The notes under the pieces are model-generated. The model did no database searches, had not been told where the DNA came from, and saw nothing but the letters and a program-made list of their open reading frames with translations. Below are positions 2,473 through 18,720 of a DNA stretch of 64,000 nt, one piece after another; the stretch's first letter is position 1; the number at the start of each line of letters is the position of its first letter. Origin of the DNA: an uncultured Flavobacteriaceae bacterium. Its GTDB lineage: Bacteria > Bacteroidota > Bacteroidia > Flavobacteriales > Flavobacteriaceae. The translations under genes were made by a program, and so were the position numbers. The stretch is from positions 124,001 to 188,000 of the forward strand of contig CANKZQ010000002.1 in NCBI GenBank assembly GCA_947488345.1, read 5' to 3'.

Positions 2473-2760
2473 CTACTGATTCGCAATTAAGCTCTCGATG
2501 GTTTCGGCAAGCTTAAAATCTTTTTCTGTAACACCACCGGCATCATGCGTAGAAAGTCGAATAGACAGTCTATTATATACATTATACCAATTTGGGTGGT
2601 GATTTTGAGCCTCACACTCAAATGCAATACGTGTCATCATCGCAAAACAATCTTTGAAATCACCGAACTGCAAGGTCGCTTCAATGCCATTATCAATAAA
2701 TTTCCACTCAGGAAAACGCTCAAGATATTTGTTAATTTCTGCTTCTGTTAGTTTTTTCAT
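2473..2760 (-). CDS. 4a-hydroxytetrahydrobiopterin dehydratase (pterin-4a-carbinolamine dehydratase)
   Basis: A 95-residue protein of the usual family length. ECEAQNHHPNWYNVYN (from about residue 50) is the signature with the active-site His pair, and LSTHDAGGVTEKD follows near the C terminus. The enzyme dehydrates 4a-hydroxy-tetrahydropterin to quinonoid dihydropterin, the recycling step after aromatic amino acid hydroxylation. No hydroxylase gene is in the window. Its ATG lies 2 bases after the gcvT stop, so it is very probably co-transcribed, and perhaps translationally coupled, with gcvT. Confidence 0.93.
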   Translation of the reverse strand: MKKLTEAEINKYLERFPEWKFIDNGIEATLQFGDFKDCFAMMTRIAFECEAQNHHPNWYNVYNRLSIRLSTHDAGGVTEKDFKLAETIESLIANQ

Positions 2761-2762
2761 AA

Positions 2763-3845
2763 TTATCCTTTATAAAATGGTAATTTAACAACGGTGGCTG
2801 GCACCGCATTTTTACGAATCTGTATGTTGATATTACTGCCTACTTCCCTAAAGACTGAAGGTACATAACCTAAGCCAATTCCTTTTTTTAGTGAAGGACT
2901 CATGGTGCCCGAAGTTACTTCTCCAATTTTTTGTCCATTACCATCCACAATATCATAACCTTGACGTGGAATACCACGATCATTGAGTTCAAAAGCAACG
3001 AGTCTTCGTTCTGTGCCTTGTTCTTTTTGCTTCTTTAGGTTTTCTGAATTGGTAAATTCCTTAGTGAACTTGGTAATCCAACCCAATCCAGCTTCAATAG
3101 GAGAAGTTGTATCATTGATGTCATTGCCATACAAGCAAAAGCCCATTTCAAGGCGTAAAGTATCTCTTGCTGCTAAGCCAATTGGTTTGATACCGTAATC
3201 AGCACCAGCTTCCATTACTTTTTTCCAAACTTGCTCCACTTCAGTATTTCTACAGTAAATTTCAAACCCTCCAGAGCCTGTATACCCCGTAGCAGATATG
3301 ATGACATGTTCTATACCAGCAAAATCAGCCACTTCAAAGGTGTAATATTTCATGTTCTCTAGGTCGACAGATGTTAATGATTGCATTGCCTTTGCGGCTT
3401 TAGGCCCTTGAATAGCAAGTAGTGAAAAGTCTTCTGAAACATCCTTCATTTCGGCACCCATATCATTATGAGACGCAATCCAATCCCAATCTTTTTGAAT
3501 ATTAGATGCGTTCACTACCATAACATATTTTTCTTCATTAATACGGTAAATAATCAAATCATCAACGATACCTCCGTCATTGTTTGGCATGCAGCTATAT
3601 TGAGCTTTGCCGTCAAAAAGTTTTGACGCATCATTAGAACAAACTTTTTGAATCAATGCAGTGGCATTCGGACCTAAGATGAGAAATTCTCCCATATGAG
3701 AGACATCAAACACACCTACACCGTTTCTCACAGTTTCGTGCTCAATGTTTACACCTTCATATTGCACAGGCATATTATAACCCGCGAAGGGTACTAATTT
3801 CGCTCCGAGAGCTTCATGGATATGTGTTAAAGCAGTATTTTTCAT
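2763..3845 (-). CDS. gcvT: aminomethyltransferase, glycine cleavage T-protein
   Basis: A 360-residue protein of the full family length. The T-protein transfers the methylene group of the aminomethyl-lipoyl H-protein to tetrahydrofolate, releasing ammonia. Visible marks are the N-terminal [25 protein letters not shown], the folate-site region [15 protein letters not shown], and [18 protein letters not shown], all typical of GcvT. A C-terminal barrel ends in [20 protein letters not shown]. It starts 32 bases after the thrC stop on the same strand and is followed 2 bases later by the pterin dehydratase gene. The thr operon therefore probably reads through into it. No glycine riboswitch-like structure can fit in the 32-base gap. 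Confidence 0.95.
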
Positions 3846-3877: not shown

Positions 3878-5173
3878 TTAATTCTTGAGTAAGAAAGATT
3901 TTAACTGCTCATAATTTTCAACAGAAAAGGCTTCCTTTTTTTTGTCGATTACAGCTTGTATTTGTGGAGGGTATTTTATCGAATCATTAATAACAGGCTC
4001 TACAACATCAAGAAATTTTACAGGATGAGCCGTTTCTAGAAAAATACATTGAGTATTTGGATTTTTTTCTTGATATGTTTTGACTCCTAAATACCCAACG
4101 GCTCCATGTGGATCGGCAATGTAATTGCAGTTTTTGTATAAATACAACATGGCCTCTCGCGTTTGATAATCAGTATATGAATAGGAGTAAAGATCTTTCT
4201 TTAGAGCAGTAAACTTATTGTCATATAACTGTTGAATACGTATGAAATTACTCGGATCGCCGACATCCATGGCGTTCGAAATAGTTTGTACTGAAGGTTT
4301 CGGATGATAGGCTTCTGTGGTTAAATATTGAGGAATGATATCGTTGGCGTTCGTCGCTGCAATAAATTGATGAATAGGTAAGCCCAATTTTTTCGCTAAC
4401 ATTCCAGCACATATGTTTCCATAGTTACCACTGGGAACAGAAAAAACCAGTTTTTTCTTTTTGTCAACTAATTGTTTATAAGCAAAGAAAAAATAAAACA
4501 TTTGAGGTAACCATCTTGCGATATTTATAGAGTTCGCAGATGTCAACTGCATTTTAGAAAGCAGTGACTCGTCTAAAAAGGCATTTTTAACCATGCTTTG
4601 GCAGTCATCAAACGTACCATTTACTTCCAAGGCTTTTATATTTTGACCTAATGTCGTTAACTGTTTTTCTTGAACGTTACTTACTTTTTTGCTGGGATAG
4701 AGAATGACAACATTGACGTTTTTTACACCTAAAAAACCACTAGCAACAGCACCACCAGTATCCCCAGAAGTAGCAACAAGCACCGTAACATCTTCTCCGC
4801 TATTCTGATTAAAATATCCTAAGCATCGCGCCATAAAACGAGCACCAACATCTTTAAACGCCATGGTAGGCCCATGAAATAATTCCATCGTTTTTATATC
4901 ATTTTCAATGTCAACCAACGGAAAATCAAAACATAATGTTTCTTTGATGATGTCTTTTAGGATCTCTTCAGGAATTTCGTTTCCCACGAATTGTTGAATT
5001 ACTTGAAAAGCGATTTCCTCATTAGAATAATTAGAAATGTTTGAAATAAATTCAGTTGATAAGGGGGTAATTGATTCAGGAAAGTACAATCCTTTGTCTG
5101 GCGCTAAACCTCGAATAACAGCCTCTTTGAACGATACATTTGGGGCCTTTTTATGCAAACTATAAAAGTTCAT
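3878..5173 (-). CDS. thrC: threonine synthase
   Basis: A 431-residue PLP enzyme converting O-phosphohomoserine to threonine. GPTMAFKDVGARFMARC (about residues 104-120) contains the PLP lysine in the F-K-D context, and LVATSGDTGGAVASGF supplies the phosphate-binding loop. SVPSGNYGNICAGM is the later Ser/Gly-rich PLP loop. Length and the N-terminal FYSLHKKAP match the bacterial type. It begins 3 bases after the thrB stop, so thrA-B-C form one tightly packed operon. The order thrA-thrB-thrC is the same as in enterobacteria. Confidence 0.96.
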   Translation of the reverse strand: MNFYSLHKKAPNVSFKEAVIRGLAPDKGLYFPESITPLSTEFISNISNYSNEEIAFQVIQQFVGNEIPEEILKDIIKETLCFDFPLVDIENDIKTMELFHGPTMAFKDVGARFMARCLGYFNQNSGEDVTVLVATSGDTGGAVASGFLGVKNVNVVILYPSKKVSNVQEKQLTTLGQNIKALEVNGTFDDCQSMVKNAFLDESLLSKMQLTSANSINIARWLPQMFYFFFAYKQLVDKKKKLVFSVPSGNYGNICAGMLAKKLGLPIHQFIAATNANDIIPQYLTTEAYHPKPSVQTISNAMDVGDPSNFIRIQQLYDNKFTALKKDLYSYSYTDYQTREAMLYLYKNCNYIADPHGAVGYLGVKTYQEKNPNTQCIFLETAHPVKFLDVVEPVINDSIKYPPQIQAVIDKKKEAFSVENYEQLKSFLLKN

Positions 5174-5176
5174 TTA

Positions 5177-6103
5177 TTATTGATTTAAGATTTTAATTCC
5201 TTTAGTATTTATTTTCGAGACGTGAATTTCGAAATCAATGGCGGTATTCTGATATACTTCGTGCATTGCTTGTGCTACTTTTTTTGCTGTAGCTAGGCCT
5301 TTACACAGTGCAAAAATGGTAGGTCCAGACCCGGAAATACCAGCTCCTAACGCTCCATCCGCGATAGCAGCCTCTTTCACAGCATCGAAATGTGGAATGA
5401 GTTGTTTCCGCAGCGGCTCAACAATCACATCTTGCAAGGAATTGCTGATCAATTCGTAATTATTTGAATACAACCCACTAATTAAACCACCCACATTGGC
5501 CCACTGTGTTGTCGCATCTTTTAATGAAACATGTGTATTTAGCACATCACGTGCATCTTTAGTTTTAATTTCAATTTGTGGGTGAATAACGGCTGCATAT
5601 AATTCACTTGGCACTGGGAGCTTCACTATATCCAACGGATCATAGCTTCTTACCAAGATAAAACCTCCATACAACGCAGCGCTTACATTATCGGCTATTT
5701 GGCTTCCACAGGCAGCTTCTTCTCCGAGCATAGCATATTTTGTCATTTCCAACATAGAGAAAGGCTTGCCTAATAACTCATTGACCGCAAAGGCAGTTCC
5801 TGATGCACTTGCAGCACTGCTACCTAAACCACTACCGGGTTTGAAGTTTTTATACACTTCGATATCGATTCCCACAGTTTTAGGAAAATCACGCAGCATA
5901 GCTTGCGCAACAACACCCACCACATTTTCATTGATATCATACGATAATTCGGCACCTTCAATTTTTGTAATGCGAATACCTGAAGTATCTGAAAGACAAA
6001 ATCTCATGGTATCGCCTACACTTTCTAATGCAAAACCTAGCGCATCAAAACCGCAGGAAACATTGGCTACGGTAGCCGGCGAAAATATGGTTAGTTCTTT
6101 CAT
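5177..6103 (-). CDS. thrB: homoserine kinase
   Basis: A 308-residue GHMP kinase that phosphorylates homoserine. The ATP loop is PGSGLGSSAASASGT (about residues 91-105), preceded by SPATVANVSCGFDALGFAL at the N terminus and followed by motif 3, GAGISGSGPTIFAL, near the C terminus. It starts 3 bases after the thrA stop and ends 3 bases before thrC, as expected for a co-translated pathway set. No anomalies seen. Confidence 0.96.
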   Translation of the reverse strand: MKELTIFSPATVANVSCGFDALGFALESVGDTMRFCLSDTSGIRITKIEGAELSYDINENVVGVVAQAMLRDFPKTVGIDIEVYKNFKPGSGLGSSAASASGTAFAVNELLGKPFSMLEMTKYAMLGEEAACGSQIADNVSAALYGGFILVRSYDPLDIVKLPVPSELYAAVIHPQIEIKTKDARDVLNTHVSLKDATTQWANVGGLISGLYSNNYELISNSLQDVIVEPLRKQLIPHFDAVKEAAIADGALGAGISGSGPTIFALCKGLATAKKVAQAMHEVYQNTAIDFEIHVSKINTKGIKILNQ

Positions 6104-6106
6104 ACG

Positions 6107-8557
6107 TTAGTTATTGGCAGTTCTAATGATATCAGAAAAGAGTCCCGAAGCCGTTACTTCTGCACCAGCACCAGCACCCTTGATAATCATGGGCTGTTCA
6201 GGATATCTTTCTGTGTAAAACATCACAATATTATCTTTTCCTTCTAAGTTATAAAATGGATGCCCCACTGGAATTTCTTTGAGTCCAACACTTGCTTTTC
6301 CGTTATTGAATTCTGCTACATATTTGAGCTGACAATTCGCAGCTTTCGCGGATTGATATAACTGTTGAAAATGATCCGCTTCTGTTTTGAGCGATTCATA
6401 AAAATCATCGACAGTATCAGCCGCCATATTATTAACCGTCAAAAAGGATTTGTTTTCAATAGCCTCCAATTCTATGTCATTACCACTCTCACGAGCTAAA
6501 ATTAAAATTTTTCGAGCAACATCAACGCCACTTAGATCTATTCTTGGATCAGGTTCGGTATATCCTTCATCTTGTGCCTGTTTTACGATATCGTAAAAGC
6601 TAACCGAATCGTTGAAATAATTAAAAATAAAGTTCAGACTACCCGAAAGTACAGCTTGAATTTTATTGATCTTATCACCAGATGCAATTAAATTATTCAA
6701 GGTAACAATAATTGGCAAACCGGCACCAACATTTGTTTCAAATAGAAGGGGTGCATTGTATTTTTTAGAGAGTCTTTTCAATTCTTTATAATTCTCTAGT
6801 TTGGCAGAACAGGCAATTTTATTACAAGCAACTACACCAATACTATTTTTTAAATAGTCTTGATAGAGACTGGCAACATGTTCATTCGCCGTAATATCAA
6901 CGAAAATACTATTTCGGAGATTCAATTGCTTTACTTTTTCAAAAAAGCCGTTTAGCGATGCTTTTTCACTTTTCGGAAGGTTCGTTTCCCAATGCTTAAG
7001 ATCAATACCCGTTTCATTAAAAAGCATGGTTCGAGAGTTCGAGATTCCGATGACCCTTAAATTGATATTTAAGTGCTCTTTTAAGTACGCTTTTTGTTGA
7101 TCAATTTGATGAATTAATTTGCTTCCAACGTTACCAACCCCAGTAATAAATATATTGATCTGTTTAATATTGTCCTCAAAGAATTCTTCGTGTAGACTAT
7201 TCAAGGCTTTTTTGACATCCTCTTTGCTAATCACAGCCGAAATATTCGTTTCTGAAGCGCCTTGTGCAATGGCTCTAATGTTAACATTGTTTTTACCGAG
7301 AGTACTGAACATTTTACCGCTAATACCTTGGTGACTTTTCATTTTCTCGCCCACAAGCGCAATGATCACTAAATCTTTTTCTACGATTAAAGGGTTTATC
7401 TGACCTTTTGAAATTTCTAATTCGAAAACCGAATCCACCACCTCTTTGGCCAGTTCGGCATTTCTATCATCGATACCTAAGCATATAGAATGCTCTGATG
7501 AAGATTGTGTAATGAATTTTATGTGTATGTCATGAAGGAAAAATGTTTCGAAAATCCTTTTTGAAACCCCCGGAACTCCAATTTTCCCTGGGGCTTCGAG
7601 CGTTACCAAAGAAATATTTTCAATATGACTGATGCCTTTAACTGGTGCTAAATTCGTATTCGGTTCATCAGTAATGAGCGTTCCTTTGCTTGAAGGTTCA
7701 AAAGTGTTTTTGATATAAATTGGTGTTTGTTTTACAAACGCCGGATGTATGGTTGGTGAAAAAATCACTTTCGCTCCAAAATGGGCGAGCTCCATCGCCT
7801 CATGATAAGAGATTTGATTTATAGGCTTTGCCTGTTTTACAATGGTTGGGTTTGCCGTATACATACCACTTACGTCTGTCCATATTTCTAAAGCATCTAC
7901 ATCCAGTGCCGCTGCGATAATTGCGGCTGTATAATCTGAACCACCTCTACCTAACACAGTCGTTTCATTTTTTTTGTTGGCCGCTACGAAACCAGGCACT
8001 AAAATAATTTGAGATGCGCAATTATCCACAAATTTTTTGATATTGGTATTGGTAGATTTAAAATCTACCGTTGCATTAGTATAGTTGCTATTTGCTACAA
8101 TTAATTCTCGTGTATCTTTTCTTTCAACATCTAAACTATGAGCAATCATCGCTTCCTTAATAATAAACGAAGAAAGTAATTCTCCAAAACTTGCAATTTT
8201 AGCCTCTGTTTTGGGGGTCATTTCATTGATTAAAGAAATACCTTGATATAACTGTTTTAATTTATCCAACTCTGTGTGTAGATATTTGAATACTTTACTT
8301 CTTACCGTTTCATCAGGAATAAGATCGTTAATGATATGTAGATGCATATCAACAATTTGCTGACTAATAGCGTCGAAAGAACTTTTCTTATCTAAAATAG
8401 ACTGAATTCCGTTTAGCAAAAGATTAGTTACTCCAGAAAATGCTGAAACCACTATGATTTTTTTGCCTTGACTGTTATCACTTTGAACAATATCGATAAC
8501 GAGTTTGATATTTTTAGCAGAACCAACTGAGGTACCGCCGAATTTTAAAACTTTCAT
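6107..8557 (-). CDS. thrA: bifunctional aspartokinase / homoserine dehydrogenase I
   Basis: An 816-residue fusion enzyme catalysing the first and third steps from aspartate towards threonine. Residues 1-290 are the aspartokinase (KFGGTSVGSAKN at the start, LGRGGSDYTAA in the middle). About 300-460 form tandem ACT domains, the usual site of threonine feedback inhibition. About 465 onward is the NAD(P)-binding homoserine dehydrogenase (ITGVGNVGSKL near residue 470), with VACNKIACS and GAGLPII in the catalytic half. The ATG at 8557 follows 78 bases after the stop of a Thr/Ile-rich leader ORF. Regulation is therefore probably double: ACT feedback on the enzyme and leader-peptide control of the mRNA. 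Confidence 0.96.
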   Translation of the reverse strand: MKVLKFGGTSVGSAKNIKLVIDIVQSDNSQGKKIIVVSAFSGVTNLLLNGIQSILDKKSSFDAISQQIVDMHLHIINDLIPDETVRSKVFKYLHTELDKLKQLYQGISLINEMTPKTEAKIASFGELLSSFIIKEAMIAHSLDVERKDTRELIVANSNYTNATVDFKSTNTNIKKFVDNCASQIILVPGFVAANKKNETTVLGRGGSDYTAAIIAAALDVDALEIWTDVSGMYTANPTIVKQAKPINQISYHEAMELAHFGAKVIFSPTIHPAFVKQTPIYIKNTFEPSSKGTLITDEPNTNLAPVKGISHIENISLVTLEAPGKIGVPGVSKRIFETFFLHDIHIKFITQSSSEHSICLGIDDRNAELAKEVVDSVFELEISKGQINPLIVEKDLVIIALVGEKMKSHQGISGKMFSTLGKNNVNIRAIAQGASETNISAVISKEDVKKALNSLHEEFFEDNIKQINIFITGVGNVGSKLIHQIDQQKAYLKEHLNINLRVIGISNSRTMLFNETGIDLKHWETNLPKSEKASLNGFFEKVKQLNLRNSIFVDITANEHVASLYQDYLKNSIGVVACNKIACSAKLENYKELKRLSKKYNAPLLFETNVGAGLPIIVTLNNLIASGDKINKIQAVLSGSLNFIFNYFNDSVSFYDIVKQAQDEGYTEPDPRIDLSGVDVARKILILARESGNDIELEAIENKSFLTVNNMAADTVDDFYESLKTEADHFQQLYQSAKAANCQLKYVAEFNNGKASVGLKEIPVGHPFYNLEGKDNIVMFYTERYPEQPMIIKGAGAGAEVTASGLFSDIIRTANN

Positions 8558-8635
8558 TTTAAATAGTTTGATTTATATATAAAATTGAATTGTTTTCTAA
8601 AAAATAGAATCTGAAAATAGCATATATGTATATTA

Positions 8636-8731
8636 TTAACCCCGAAGGGTCATAATTGTCATGATAGCAATAATACGCCCAGAAGTAGAGAGTGGACATG
8701 TGTAAGTTTGTGTATTGCTATTCGTTTGCAT
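8636..8731 (-). CDS. thr operon leader peptide (Thr/Ile-rich, 31 residues)
   Basis: A short ATG-to-TAA frame in front of thrA. It begins MQTNSNTQTYT and ends IIAIMTIMTLRG. Seven of 31 residues are Thr (positions 3, 7, 9, 11, 16, 25, 28) and four are Ile (20, 21, 23, 26), the end products of the pathway. That composition, the place directly upstream of thrA, and a good promoter just in front are the marks of an attenuation leader, as with thrL of enterobacteria; the sequence is not thrL-like. The stop overlaps a UUCG hairpin. The predicted transcript start lies almost on the ATG, so the mRNA may be nearly leaderless, or translation may begin at the internal ATG that gives MTIMTLRG. Confidence 0.7.
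   Translation of the reverse strand: MQTNSNTQTYTCPLSTSGRIIAIMTIMTLRG
8637..8652 (-). promoter_or_regulatory. UUCG-loop hairpin at the end of the thr leader ORF
   Basis: Read on the minus strand, TGACCC-TTCG-GGGTTA folds into a six-pair stem (one G-U) closed by C-G around a UUCG tetraloop, an especially stable loop. It overlaps the last codons and stop of the leader ORF. It is followed by an A/T mixture, not a U run, so it is not a standard intrinsic terminator. A ribosome at the leader stop would melt it, and a ribosome stalled earlier would let it form. Function is inferred. Confidence 0.5.
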
Positions 8732-8735
8732 ATAA

Positions 8736-8766
8736 CAAATGTATAAGATAATATTTTAACGACAAG
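8736..8766 (-). promoter_or_regulatory. promoter of the thr operon leader
   Basis: On the minus strand the bases read CTTG-N19-TACATTTG. The Bacteroidota housekeeping consensus is TTTG-N19-TANNTTTG, so the -7 box is perfect and the -33 box has one mismatch. The predicted transcript start falls within a few bases of the leader ATG at 8731. Confidence 0.65.
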
Positions 8767-8847
8767 GTATTTAAACGCTAAAATCCTCATTTTTATCATA
8801 TCGTTATTCTACAGAATAAAAATTCACAAATATTTAATAAAAGACGG

Positions 8848-8878
8848 TTTAACTGCTAAAATTATAATTGTATTTTTG
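8848..8878 (+). promoter_or_regulatory. promoter of the Xaa-Pro aminopeptidase gene
   Basis: TTTA-N19-TATTTTTG: a perfect TANNTTTG box at 8871-8878 with a near-consensus -33 element at exact spacing. It sits 20 bases before the ATG at 8898 and rules out the TTG at 8868 as a start. Confidence 0.6.
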
Positions 8879-8897
8879 GTTTTTAAAACACCAAATC

Positions 8898-10532
8898 ATG
8901 ACTAAAAGATGCTTACTACTTGTTGCAGCTTTCGTTCTAACGCAATTTATGGTTGCGCAAGAGCTGATTCCAACTGATTATTTATCGAAAGAATTTCATA
9001 AAGATAGGAGAGAAGCCCTACGTAAAAAAATGCCGAAGAATTCAGTAGCTATTTTTATGGCGAACCCTATTCGAAACAGAGCGAATGATGTAGATTACGT
9101 ATATCATCAAGATCCGAATTTCTATTATTTAACAGGGTATAGAGAACCAGACGCTGTGTTATTGATATTCTCTGAAGATCAAACGGAAGATTCAACTAGT
9201 TACAATGAATTGATTTATGTTCAGGAGAAAAATGCTCAGGCTGAAATGTGGACAGGTAAGAGGCTTGGTGTTAAAGGGACTCAAGAAAAATTAGGCTTCG
9301 CTAACGCTTTTAATGGTGGAGATTTTAAGGACTTATCCCTAAATTTTAAAGCATTTGATAAAGTTCTCTTATTTGACTTTAATAATGACTACAGAAACTC
9401 AAAGAGAAATAATGCCGATATTTTTGATCTTTCTGAGCAGTTAAAAGCTAAAATAGGATATTCTAAGGAAGTAATTCCTGACCCTACTAAGGAAAATTTA
9501 TATAAAACTATTAAAGCGACAGAAATAGAAAATAGTGCGAATGTTGCTCAAAATTTAGGTCGATACTTAGAATTCTATCCTGAGCTGAAAAAGGATGAGC
9601 TATTGGTCGGATACCAGACCGCATCTTCGGATGAACTCCGCAAAGAATTCAAGCAAAAGATAAGTTTAAAATTAGAAGCTATTCCTAAAACAAATATCGA
9701 TGTTCGTGGCTTAGGTCAACTGATGGGGTCTTTAAGAGAAACGAAACTTCCCGAAGAGTTGAAATTGTTAAAGAAAGCGGTAGAAATTTCGGCGGTTGGA
9801 CAGATTGAAATTATGAAAGCTATGCATCCAAATATGTCTGAAACAGAAATTCAGGGTGTACACGAATTTGTATATAAAAAGTATGGTGCAGAATATGAGG
9901 GGTATCCTTCAATAGTTGGTGGTGGTGGTAATGGCTGTATTCTTCATTACATAGAAAATAATAAAACCAAGGTTGGTAATGATCTTGTTTTAATGGATTT
10001 GGGTGCAGAATATCGCGGATATACGGCCGACGTTACAAGAACGATTCCAGCAAATGGTAAATTCTCACCAGCGCAAAAATCGATCTATGATATTGTTTAT
10101 GAGGCTCAAGAAGCAGGAATTGCCGAATCTAAAGTGGGTAATTCATTTTTCGCAACACACAGAGCTGCTCAAAAGGTTATCAATGAAGGCCTTGTGAAAC
10201 TAGGGATTATTAAATCGGTAGATGAAAAGCATTCTTACTTTCCACACGGTACTTCGCATCATATTGGTCTTGATGTTCATGATCCTTCAGCGAGTAGAAG
10301 TTTTAGTGAGAATATGGTGATTACCGTTGAACCTGGAATCTATATTCCTGAGGGTAGTCCTTGCGATAAAAAGTGGTGGGGTATTGCCGTTCGTATTGAA
10401 GATGATATTTTGATCACCAAGGATGGACCCATAAATTTATCCGCGAAAGCGCCGAGAAAATCAGAAGAAATTGAGCAATTAATGCTTCAAAAAAGTGTTC
10501 TAACCGATTTTAAACTTCCCGATTTAGACTAA
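8898..10532 (+). CDS. exported Xaa-Pro aminopeptidase, M24B family
   Basis: A 544-residue protein starting at the ATG at 8898, with a type I signal peptide (MTKRCLLLVAAFVLTQFMVAQ). The aminopeptidase P N-terminal domain covers about residues 25-200 and the creatinase-fold M24 metallopeptidase domain about 270-520. Metal ligands are visible as MDLGAEYRGYTADVTRT (two Asp), HGTSHHIGLDVHD (His), VEPGIYIPEG (Glu) and VRIEDDILIT (Glu). M24B enzymes remove an N-terminal residue in front of proline; the signal peptide places this one in the periplasm. It is followed by a shared terminator with lysA on the other strand. Confidence 0.93.
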   Translation: MTKRCLLLVAAFVLTQFMVAQELIPTDYLSKEFHKDRREALRKKMPKNSVAIFMANPIRNRANDVDYVYHQDPNFYYLTGYREPDAVLLIFSEDQTEDSTSYNELIYVQEKNAQAEMWTGKRLGVKGTQEKLGFANAFNGGDFKDLSLNFKAFDKVLLFDFNNDYRNSKRNNADIFDLSEQLKAKIGYSKEVIPDPTKENLYKTIKATEIENSANVAQNLGRYLEFYPELKKDELLVGYQTASSDELRKEFKQKISLKLEAIPKTNIDVRGLGQLMGSLRETKLPEELKLLKKAVEISAVGQIEIMKAMHPNMSETEIQGVHEFVYKKYGAEYEGYPSIVGGGGNGCILHYIENNKTKVGNDLVLMDLGAEYRGYTADVTRTIPANGKFSPAQKSIYDIVYEAQEAGIAESKVGNSFFATHRAAQKVINEGLVKLGIIKSVDEKHSYFPHGTSHHIGLDVHDPSASRSFSENMVITVEPGIYIPEGSPCDKKWWGIAVRIEDDILITKDGPINLSAKAPRKSEEIEQLMLQKSVLTDFKLPDLD

Positions 10533-13197: not shown

Positions 13198-14436
13198 CTA
13201 GATTGCAGTTTTACATACTTTTGCGTGAGGAATAAAGTAACTATACGCTCCTAGCTTTTCTTTGTCAAAAGCTATAGTTGGAAGTTTAAAGTTATTCCCA
13301 TCTAAGCTATCAATTTTATAGGTGTAGTATTCAGGAGATGTGGTGAAGTTACCTTCACTATCTGTTGGATACTTATCAAAACCGAAATAGAAACTTACTT
13401 CAGACAATTCATAACTTGAATCCGTTACGACGTACTCAGCAGACAACGACGGTAAATTATTGTTGTCGGCATCATAAAATACGTTCAATTCGATATAACC
13501 TATCTGGATTTTATCTTCCTCTGTACATTGTTCTCCTTCTTCATTGACATATAAAGGCATCTGCCAGTTCTTGCCATTATTATTTTGATACTCTTCAAGG
13601 ATAATAAATTTTATGAGGTTAGTCCATCCCCAGTCAGAGAATCCACCTTCAGAAAAACAAAGTGATAACGGCTTGTAAAATAAACCTTTTGCATCAACAC
13701 ATTCTTTTTCTACTTCACAATCTTTTTTACAGTATTCAAACGATCGTACCCATTCGTTATAATAGTAACATCTTGAATAATAAGAGTAGCTATACGTTTG
13801 CGTTAGGCTCTCATCATATGCAAAAGATGTATACAAACATCTACTGTAGCTGTCATATACTTTCGCGTAGGCAACAATTTCTAAGCACTCCATGTCAACA
13901 TCAGACATCGGAATTACATACGTTGCATTTTTCGTACCTCCAAAATAATAAGGAAATGCTTTGTAGTTGAACTTTCTTAAATTCGGAAAACCGTTAGAAT
14001 AGAAAGGAGTACTTCCTTTTGCGCCAATGTTTAAATACACTTTTTTCATGTATTTATGCTGGTCAGCAGTAAACGTTAGGTACAAATTCTCTTCATCATT
14101 CGTCACCTTAACTTCTCCTACCTTTTTCTTTTTTGAGCCAACTAACAATGACATTGTTGTAGCCTCACCACACATATTGTCAATTTTTTCTTGACTTAAC
14201 TCTGATGGTTTTAATAAGGTGTAATTATAATAACCATATGTTTTTTTATCGATTCCTGTAGGGGCTTCTTCTTCAACATCAGATTCTTCAATCGAACCAT
14301 CATTTTCAAAAAAGTCAGGTTCAATATTTACTTTATTGGATGTTGGAATTACGTCATCTTCTTCAGATGTGTTACACGCGGTAAATAGCAGAAATAAGGC
14401 CACAAGGGAATATGACCATAAGTAATTTTTTTTCAT
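13198..14436 (-). CDS. tandem mosaic lipoprotein paralogue A, function unknown
   Basis: A 412-residue lipoprotein starting at the ATG at 14436. The signal peptide MKKNYLWSYSLVALFLL ends at a Cys followed by an acidic stretch (SEEDD), which resembles Bacteroidota surface-lipoprotein export signals. Residues about 60-230 are a variable domain with VTNDEENLYLTF and a Tyr-rich patch. The last 179 residues, from YCKKDCEVEKEC onward, are about 94 percent identical by eye to paralogue B (14669-15709) and hold five or more Cys, suggesting disulfides. I do not recognise a named family. It has a perfect promoter and its own terminator. Confidence 0.8.
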   Translation of the reverse strand: MKKNYLWSYSLVALFLLFTACNTSEEDDVIPTSNKVNIEPDFFENDGSIEESDVEEEAPTGIDKKTYGYYNYTLLKPSELSQEKIDNMCGEATTMSLLVGSKKKKVGEVKVTNDEENLYLTFTADQHKYMKKVYLNIGAKGSTPFYSNGFPNLRKFNYKAFPYYFGGTKNATYVIPMSDVDMECLEIVAYAKVYDSYSRCLYTSFAYDESLTQTYSYSYYSRCYYYNEWVRSFEYCKKDCEVEKECVDAKGLFYKPLSLCFSEGGFSDWGWTNLIKFIILEEYQNNNGKNWQMPLYVNEEGEQCTEEDKIQIGYIELNVFYDADNNNLPSLSAEYVVTDSSYELSEVSFYFGFDKYPTDSEGNFTTSPEYYTYKIDSLDGNNFKLPTIAFDKEKLGAYSYFIPHAKVCKTAI

Positions 14437-14468
14437 AGCAAATAAAAATTTAATTATTAATAGTGGAG

Positions 14469-14499
14469 CAAATGTATTATAAAAAAAACAATACGCAAA
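14469..14499 (-). promoter_or_regulatory. perfect promoter of lipoprotein paralogue A
   Basis: Minus strand TTTG-N19-TACATTTG, an exact match to the Bacteroidota consensus, 33 bases before the ATG at 14436. The same boxes at the same spacing recur before paralogue B. Confidence 0.75.
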
Positions 14500-14610
14500 A
14501 GAAAATACGCTTTTTATAGAAAAAAAGGCGTTAATAATCAGTGAGTTATGTTGAGCAATTATCTGTTGCATGGAACAATGTTTTTATCAAAATAGATTTA
14601 ATATTTGATC

Positions 14611-14668: not shown

Positions 14669-15709
14669 CTACATGGTAGTTTTACATACTTTTGCGTGAG
14701 GAATAAAATAGCTATAAGCTCCTAGCTTTTCTTTGTCAAAAGCTATCGTTGGAAGTTTAAAGTCATTCCCGTCTAAGTTATCAACTTTATACGTGTAATA
14801 TTCTGGAGATGTGGTGAAGTTACCTTCACTATCTGTTGGATACTTATCAAATCCGAAATAGAAACTTACTTCAGACAATTCATAACTTGAATCGGTTAAG
14901 ATGTATTCAGCAGACAGCGATGGTAAATTATTATTGTCGGCATCATAAAATACGTTCAATTCAATATAACCAATTTGGATTTTATCTTGTTCTGTACATT
15001 GTTCTCCTTCTTCATTGATATATAAAGGCATCTGCCAGTTCTTGCCATTATTATTTTGATACTCGTCAAGGATAATAAATTTTATCAGGTTCGTCCATCC
15101 CCATTCAGAGAATCCACCTTCAGAAAAACAAAGTGACAAAGGTTTATAGAATAGACCTTTTGCATCAACACACTCTTTTTCTACCTCACAGTCTTTTTTG
15201 CAATATTCGAAATAGCAACCCCATCGTTTTCCAGAGAATTCTTTATCTCCACAACCAAATGCTGTTTCAGATTGTTTAATTTCCCCATCAACTATTTTAT
15301 TTACAACTGCATGAGCAACAATTACAAAACAGTCATTTAAATCAGACAAAGGAATTACGAAGGGATCATTGTTATCACCATGGTAAGGAAAGTGACCTAT
15401 TTTCGGATTACCAGAACGTGTTTGAGGAATATCTTCTTCAGGACCGACATAAAGATGAGTTTCAGAAATAGACCAATCATCATTCGTTTGATAAGTAACA
15501 TAAAGATTTTCTTCATCATTAGTAACGGTTACAGTCCCTGCATCAATATGTTGACCAGCAATTAATGTTACAATTTTAGCATCCTCACAGGTCGTCTGTT
15601 GAGCAGAAGATTTCTCGTTAAATTCAAAATTAACATCTTCAGAATTACATGCGATACATAGCAGAAATAAGGCCACAAGGGAATATGACCATAAGTAATT
15701 TTTTTTCAT
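14669..15709 (-). CDS. tandem mosaic lipoprotein paralogue B, function unknown
   Basis: A 346-residue lipoprotein. Its first 17 residues equal those of paralogue A, with lipobox then CNSEDV. Residues about 41-165 hold a domain with LIAGQHIDAG, VTVTNDEENLYVTY and ETHLYVG, a pattern I associate with uncharacterised Bacteroidota lipoproteins; paralogue A has only a diverged version of this domain. From residue 168 (YCKKDC) to the end it nearly equals paralogue A, with 11 conservative changes in 179 positions. Probably anchored in the outer membrane. Arose by tandem duplication that included promoter and terminator. Confidence 0.8.
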   Translation of the reverse strand: MKKNYLWSYSLVALFLLCIACNSEDVNFEFNEKSSAQQTTCEDAKIVTLIAGQHIDAGTVTVTNDEENLYVTYQTNDDWSISETHLYVGPEEDIPQTRSGNPKIGHFPYHGDNNDPFVIPLSDLNDCFVIVAHAVVNKIVDGEIKQSETAFGCGDKEFSGKRWGCYFEYCKKDCEVEKECVDAKGLFYKPLSLCFSEGGFSEWGWTNLIKFIILDEYQNNNGKNWQMPLYINEEGEQCTEQDKIQIGYIELNVFYDADNNNLPSLSAEYILTDSSYELSEVSFYFGFDKYPTDSEGNFTTSPEYYTYKVDNLDGNDFKLPTIAFDKEKLGAYSYFIPHAKVCKTTM

Positions 15710-18599: not shown

Positions 18600-18656
18600 A
18601 TGAACTTTATTCAATTACATCATCATCATTTTCATATTTGCACTCAGGCGAATTGA
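18600..18656 (+). CDS. his operon leader peptide (18 residues, five His codons)
   Basis: ATG at 18600, stop at 18654-18656. The peptide reads MNFIQLHHHHFHICTQAN: four His in a row, a Phe, then a fifth His. A run of codons for the end product, followed 29 bases later by an intrinsic terminator and then hisG, is the classic layout of ribosome-mediated attenuation. TTCAATT at 18610-18616 can pair with AATTGAA at 18651-18657, giving a seven-pair hairpin that encloses the His codons and would be opened by a moving ribosome. Confidence 0.85.
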   Translation: MNFIQLHHHHFHICTQAN

Positions 18657-18685
18657 AATTGTATTGAATAAAATCAAGATATTTT

Positions 18686-18720
18686 AAACCCGTTTGAGTA
18701 GATCAAGCGGGTTTTTCTTT
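18686..18720 (+). terminator. his operon attenuator (intrinsic terminator)
   Basis: A 12-pair stem (18686-18697 with 18703-18714, one G-U, loop GTAGA) containing CCCG/CGGG, followed by TTCTTT. TCAAG at 18703-18707 in the stem has an identical copy at 18674-18678 that could compete for the same partner (TTTGA at 18693-18697) and act as a short antiterminator. hisG starts 74 bases further on. Confidence 0.85.

Follow-up and report, generated by a model that had tools for sequence, protein, structure and literature searches.

The thr operon and its upstream region

We analyzed a 64,000-nt stretch of DNA (hereafter, the window) from an uncultured Flavobacteriaceae bacterium (assembly GCA_947488345.1, contig CANKZQ010000002.1, positions 124,001 to 188,000 of the forward strand). 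Its reverse strand carries thrA, thrB, thrC, gcvT, and a pterin dehydratase gene, an order given in the original prediction and borne out by NCBIfam (Table 1). The gaps between successive genes are 3, 3, 32, and 2 nt, and from these we infer that thrA through the pterin dehydratase gene form a single transcript.

Upstream of thrA, which starts at 8557, and 78 nt away from it, lies an ORF of 31 codons that comprises 7 Thr and 4 Ile codons, exactly as first counted. It is preceded by a TTG element and, after 19 nt, by the -7 box TACATTTG, an arrangement that fits the flavobacterial sigma-A consensus TAnnTTTG and agrees with the near-perfect promoter predicted at this place. This consensus occupies positions -12 to -5 (PMC9723704), and the predicted +1 is therefore the A of the leader ATG.

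The Thr content of the ORF is beyond chance, and its Ile content alone is not. When the 250 nt preceding thrA were dinucleotide-shuffled 5000 times, the 7 Thr of the best ORF were reached in 6 shuffles, the combined Thr and Ile count in 148, and the best Ile count in 1002. Moreover, the window holds 296 ORFs that start with ATG and are 20-50 codons long, and three of these (the leader ORF among them) contain at least 20% Thr. The peptide had no Pfam match, and the Rfam family Thr_leader (RF00506) matched neither the window at its gathering score nor positions 8400-8950 at E≤10.

Table 1. Features of the thr operon, its leader region, and the his leader in the window
Feature	Coordinates	Strand	Basis or remark
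4a-Hydroxytetrahydrobiopterin (pterin) dehydratase	2473..2760	-	NCBIfam
gcvT, glycine cleavage aminomethyltransferase	2763..3845	-	NCBIfam
thrC, threonine synthase	3878..5173	-	NCBIfam
thrB, homoserine kinase	5177..6103	-	NCBIfam
thrA, bifunctional aspartate kinase/homoserine dehydrogenase I	6107..8557	-	NF006959, 1010.7 bits
C-over-G interval, leader stop to thrA; candidate Rho loading region	8558..8635	-	C 10.3%, G 3.8%
H2, weak AU hairpin (UUCUA-UUUUU-UAGAA)	8595..8609	-	window fold, -2.5 kcal/mol
ACATATATGCT, window version of the ACATATCATCC-like segment	8619..8629	-	9 nt after H1; 4 mismatches
H1, hairpin UGACCC[UUCG]GGGUUA	8637..8652	-	fold, -7.7 kcal/mol
Leader peptide ORF, MQTNSNTQTYTCPLSTSGRIIAIMTIMTLRG*	8636..8731	-	starts at the predicted +1
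-7 box TACATTTG of the sigma-A promoter type (TAnnTTTG)	8736..8743	-	sequence; position -12 to -5 per PMC9723704
-33 element TTG (19-nt spacer to the -7 box)	8763..8765	-	sequence
His-run leader peptide, MNFIQLHHHHFHICTQAN*	18600-18656	+	before hisG at about 18794
his leader terminator, 12-pair	18686-18714	+	T tail; 51-nt segment, -19.1 kcal/mol

Conservation of the leader in relatives

The original prediction had proposed that the frame and its Thr codons be sought in relatives, and the leader passed this check at two levels. At the genus level, 17 genomes (the window's own included) yielded 13 loci with a usable upstream region (L001-L013, where L001 is the window and L007-L009 are almost identical), and all 13 keep both start and frame. 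In each, exactly 4 nt separate the -7 box TAnnTTTG from an ATG or GTG downstream, and in 12 of them a TTG is found at 17-21 nt from that box. The distance from the start codon to the ACC codon of H1 takes the values 78, 81, 84, and 87 nt, all divisible by three, such that indels within these ORFs preserve the frame. The leader message of the window and its genus is probably leaderless, with the start codon at the predicted +1. GTG is the start codon in 8 of the 13 loci and fits leaderless initiation less easily, which is a mild difficulty here. Leaderless messages make up 5.5% of those counted in a flavobacterial transcriptome, and translation starts in Bacteroidota are described as independent of Shine-Dalgarno pairing (both PMC9723704). 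Outside the genus, the spacing from box to start is mostly 8-23 nt, with 4 nt recurring in L015 and L051, and overall a -7 box precedes H1 in 79 of the 93 loci defined below.

At the family level, we used named flavobacterial thrA loci, taking the best 80 of 223 relatives, and 67 of them contain an open frame ending in the ACCC...GGGT hairpin; counted over the 15 codons that end with ACC, 64 of the 80 have three or more Thr and 52 have four or more. The motif is absent from 13 of these loci, including Lacinutrix, Oceanihabitans, and Psychroflexus strains (L049, L050, L055, L063, L081, L085, L086, L088, L095, L098, L101, L108, and L110). In seven of these, a -7-like box is located no more than 100 nt from thrA, and all 13 are possibly natural losses that would be useful for comparison.

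We extended the comparison to further relatives, of which 142 genomes matched and 70 (30 returned and 40 hand-chosen across families) had their upstream region examined. With identical sequences removed, 156 distinct thrA upstream regions were left, 93 with and 63 without a counterpart of H1; a further motif match, in L176, fell within a long frame and was discarded as fortuitous. As the 93 loci were selected by the hairpin motif (taking the most Thr-rich where a region held several), the invariance of the stem and the single ACC codon are built into the set, and the related sequences in these comparisons are non-independent. In a test independent of the motif, a Thr-rich ORF at P≤0.05 was found in 71 of the 93 regions with H1 versus 9 of the 63 without it. 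Across the 93 loci, the 14 codons that precede ACCC are enriched 4.9-fold in Thr and 1.9-fold in Ile relative to shuffles. Further, the 15 codons up to ACC in frame 0 are 34.6% Thr and 17.6% Ile, with no stops at all; the other two frames are Leu- or Tyr-rich and contain 61 and 25 stops. Identity per codon position (0.475, 0.393, and 0.414) gave no clear periodicity, and changes among the three closest loci have a mild third-position excess. The ORF is variable in sequence, yet it retains Thr codons near its end. Of the proposed control by threonine and isoleucine tRNAs, the threonine part is supported, being enriched beyond shuffles in the window and across the 93 loci, whereas isoleucine is the weaker candidate, with a smaller excess in the set and none in the window.

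A covariance model of 72 positions, built from 33 loci including the window (which match by construction), found matches in 78 of 149 family genomes, 77 of them with a single match, and in 38 of 296 genomes across the phylum, including some other Bacteroidota families. These searches, run with stricter filters that lose weak matches, gave 111 distinct places, with six genomes common to both. Among 77 inspected places, 75 lie before thrA: 57 of them each have a thrA-like start within ~420 nt, and of the 20 lower-scoring ones, 18 precede thrA and two (L251 and L263) do not. Since the model misses the terminator type described below, it undercounts thr leaders in the phylum. From its composition and conservation, we consider it highly likely that the ORF is a threonine-sensing leader peptide, namely the sensor of an attenuator for the thr operon.

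Terminators in thr and his leaders

The original prediction implied ordinary attenuation, but our screen found no standard terminator after the window's leader. Terminator-like hairpins follow the leader in two of the 93 loci, both weak and neither in the window (shuffled control, 0 of 31), and no intrinsic terminator with a competing antiterminator was found for thr leaders of the window type.

Terminators are present in other thr leaders of the phylum. Nine of the 63 motif-less regions contain a significant Thr-rich ORF, and L144 and L152 are further candidates that fall short of significance (P values of 0.10 and 0.13). Strong terminators occur in seven of these 11 (L142, L144, L146, L147, L149, L153, and L156), with energies of -14.5 to -22.5 kcal/mol, L144 being a weaker instance of the type. 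In all seven, a strand before the terminator is able to pair with its first arm, as judged by duplex energies only and without a shuffled control. Terminator-like hairpins of -12 kcal/mol or lower were also present in 6 of the 52 remaining motif-less regions and may be part of the gene upstream. Of nine loci searched with the Rfam Thr_leader model, four gave scores of 36.5 to 31.7 bits, under its cut-off of 55, and two of the four score similarly with other families, namely ncr1575 (L146) and Phe_leader (L153).

Separately, L143, L145, and L152, from another family of the class, carry thr leaders in which no terminator was found. By eye, L143 and L145 have their stop codon in a hairpin loop, as in ACGGG[GUAA]CCCGU, and the three are possibly a third architecture.

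The window also contains a his leader on its forward strand, in which a His-run peptide is followed by a standard terminator, along with a strand able to act as antiterminator. Of 13 hisG loci, 12 (all but L273) were evaluated, and each of these, among them the one in the window, has a His run before hisG; the leader (18600-18714) had no Rfam match at gathering score. Because this leader combines a strong hairpin with a T tail, the genome appears to use standard terminators.

The hairpin H1 and the stretch between leader and thrA

H1 spans the last Thr codon of the leader (ACC) and the codons CTT CGG GGT and reaches into the stop codon. Covariation gives no proof of its pairing, as the stem is nearly invariant across 93 loci that were chosen for H1. 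Downstream, a segment resembling ACATATCATCC was found with up to three mismatches in 28 of the 93 loci versus about 7% of shuffled segments, and with up to four in 62 versus about 35%; in 46 of these 62, it starts 8 or 9 nt past H1. The window's ACATATATGCT has four mismatches, a level often reached by shuffled segments.

We rejected ACATATCATCC as a general attenuator module: the exact pattern occurs in 14 of 120 family genomes, and a reversed control in 3 of 120. By eye, three of the 14 exact places (L181, L188, and L192) lie in a gap before a gene, in each case thrA, and the other 11 are apparently within or against coding frames. We likewise discarded a long-range helix between purines of the ORF and pyrimidines after its stop, which was convincing by eye in single loci and unsupported by permutation (341 of 5000 were as good).

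The stretch from the leader stop to thrA is richer in C than in G in 90 of the 93 loci (means of 17.1% and 7.5%), compared with 3 of 14 flavobacterial thrA loci without a leader and 18 of 28 other genes of the window, although this bias could stem from another cause, e.g., keeping the G-run of H1 unpaired. A rho gene is present in the window's genome (TIGR00767, 639.4 bits).

A model for the output and its alternatives

Because of H1, the ACATATCATCC-like segment, the C-rich and G-poor stretch, and a terminator that was not found, we infer a pause hairpin coupled to Rho as the output of the thr leader, a tentative reading that is somewhat more apt to be wrong than right. According to this model, ribosomes would load at the 5' end of the leaderless message and, when Thr-tRNA is charged, would complete the leader and leave at the stop codon. 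H1 would then close behind them and hold RNA polymerase at the conserved ACATATCATCC-like segment, while Rho would load on the naked C-rich RNA and terminate the transcript ahead of thrA. Under a shortage of Thr-tRNA, a ribosome held up at the last Thr codons would cover H1, such that polymerase would not pause and would read through into thrABC, gcvT, and the pterin dehydratase gene. The proposed role of H1 builds on the limits of the ribosome footprint, and its direction (starvation opens, plenty closes) is borrowed from general attenuator logic. Of the two halves of the system, the sensor is very likely, and the output, which would be unusual, is a candidate.

The same sensor could instead act through intrinsic termination, either at the AU-rich H2 or at a weak hairpin that our screen missed in an AT-rich lineage. 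In a related clade of 40 sequences (the window excluded), a hairpin at a similar place to H2 shows compensatory changes in five of its six pairs, with 20 cells changed on both sides versus 6.4 in shuffles, and T-rich stretches follow it in several loci. Nevertheless, H2 of the window folds at a mere -2.5 kcal/mol, just two of 93 loci passed the terminator screen, and the his leader of the window combines a T tail with a strong hairpin (-19.1 kcal/mol over 51 nt), which together make this output unlikely.

Similarly unlikely is that the sensor governs how well the thrA mRNA is translated, or how stable it is, rather than its transcription. Such an effect would account for the lack of a recognized terminator in the window type, and toiL-topAI of E. 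coli (PMC12121999) offers a precedent. However, the leader stop lies 66-186 nt from thrA, L052, L053, and L067 have additional sequence between the element and thrA, and the consensus fold of the 40-sequence clade, which contains only H1 and H2, leaves the thrA start uncovered.

It is very improbable that the window has no attenuation and that thrA is transcribed from a promoter after the leader, the small ORF being a separate short gene. A -7-like box does lie between H1 and thrA in 15 of the 93 loci, where a second promoter is possible, and 8 of 14 thrA loci that lack a leader carry a box no more than 100 nt from thrA. The window, however, has no such box, the ORF varies in sequence but keeps its terminal Thr codons, unlike a conserved protein, and the element precedes thrA at nearly every inspected place. 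Finally, although the window has two further ORFs of 20-50 codons that also contain at least 20% Thr, a chance ORF is a practically negligible explanation given the conserved start, frame, Thr codons, H1, and position before thrA. Taken whole, a threonine-sensing leader that attenuates the thr operon is probably the best explanation for this locus.

Relation to known attenuators

Attenuation by leader peptides is a textbook mechanism. In the enterobacterial thr attenuator (RF00506), the Thr/Ile leader thrL lies between promoter and thrA and senses by ribosome stalling, which is presumably shared by the leader in the window. The two resemble each other in a short ORF with Thr and Ile codons, in its place between promoter and thrA, and in the operon. 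Unlike thrL, the window leader has a hairpin over its stop codon and a start at the predicted +1, and a terminator and antiterminator were not found for it. The terminator-type leaders of Bacteroidota (L142 and the others) share the phylum and the Thr/Ile-rich leader before thrA, but differ from the window type in their strong terminators and in an upstream strand that can pair with the terminator arm. The his leader of the window, in turn, is likewise a peptide with an amino acid run before a biosynthetic operon, and differs from the thr leader in its standard terminator and possible antiterminator strand.

Among published systems, trpL of Sinorhizobium meliloti also has its ATG at the 5' end of the transcript, but it concerns tryptophan in an alphaproteobacterium and is described as transcription attenuation (PMC7298713). 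In toiL-topAI, as in our model, a ribosome stalled on an upstream ORF alters RNA structure and, indirectly, Rho-dependent termination; it differs in sensing ribosome-targeting antibiotics and in terminating inside the downstream gene (PMC12121999). For Bacteroidota, the excerpt of PMC9723704 speaks of strong clues for leader peptide attenuation before amino acid biosynthesis operons in Flavobacterium psychrophilum, which belongs to the same family as the window, and names no operon, peptide, or structure; a Bacteroides map notes short ORFs that resemble leader peptides (PMC7366714). An Rfam survey of leaders suggests a gammaproteobacterial origin of amino acid attenuator motifs (PMC3766115). 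Our literature search, which mostly covered papers outside subscription, found no Bacteroidota thr leader described, and the comparative paper of Lopatovskaya et al. (2010) may well include one.

Against the hints in the excerpts of PMC9723704 and PMC7366714, the thr leaders described here are concrete instances of candidate leader-peptide attenuation in Bacteroidota, with two architectures for one operon in the phylum. A single window pairs a standard his attenuator with a putative thr attenuator that has no recognizable terminator. The latter may represent a second attenuation architecture, in which the last regulatory codon is an arm of a stop-codon hairpin and the position of the ribosome would directly set pausing and Rho termination, with no swap of terminator and antiterminator; it would precede thrA in 78 of 149 family genomes and be leaderless in the window's genus. 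Our confidence in this proposal falls a little short of even. If the output is Rho-dependent, ribosome stalling would be tied to Rho without alternative hairpins.

Other observations

Upstream regions of ilvD yielded no clear common leader. By eye, L284, L288, L290, and L291 contain short Ile/Val/Leu-rich ORFs and then hairpin-plus-T stretches before ilvD, a pattern less clear upstream of ilvD in the window's own genome (L289). Elsewhere in the window, two adjacent and related lipoprotein-like ORFs on the reverse strand (13198-14571 and 14669-15709) share a long, near-identical C-terminal part and are apparently a tandem duplication.
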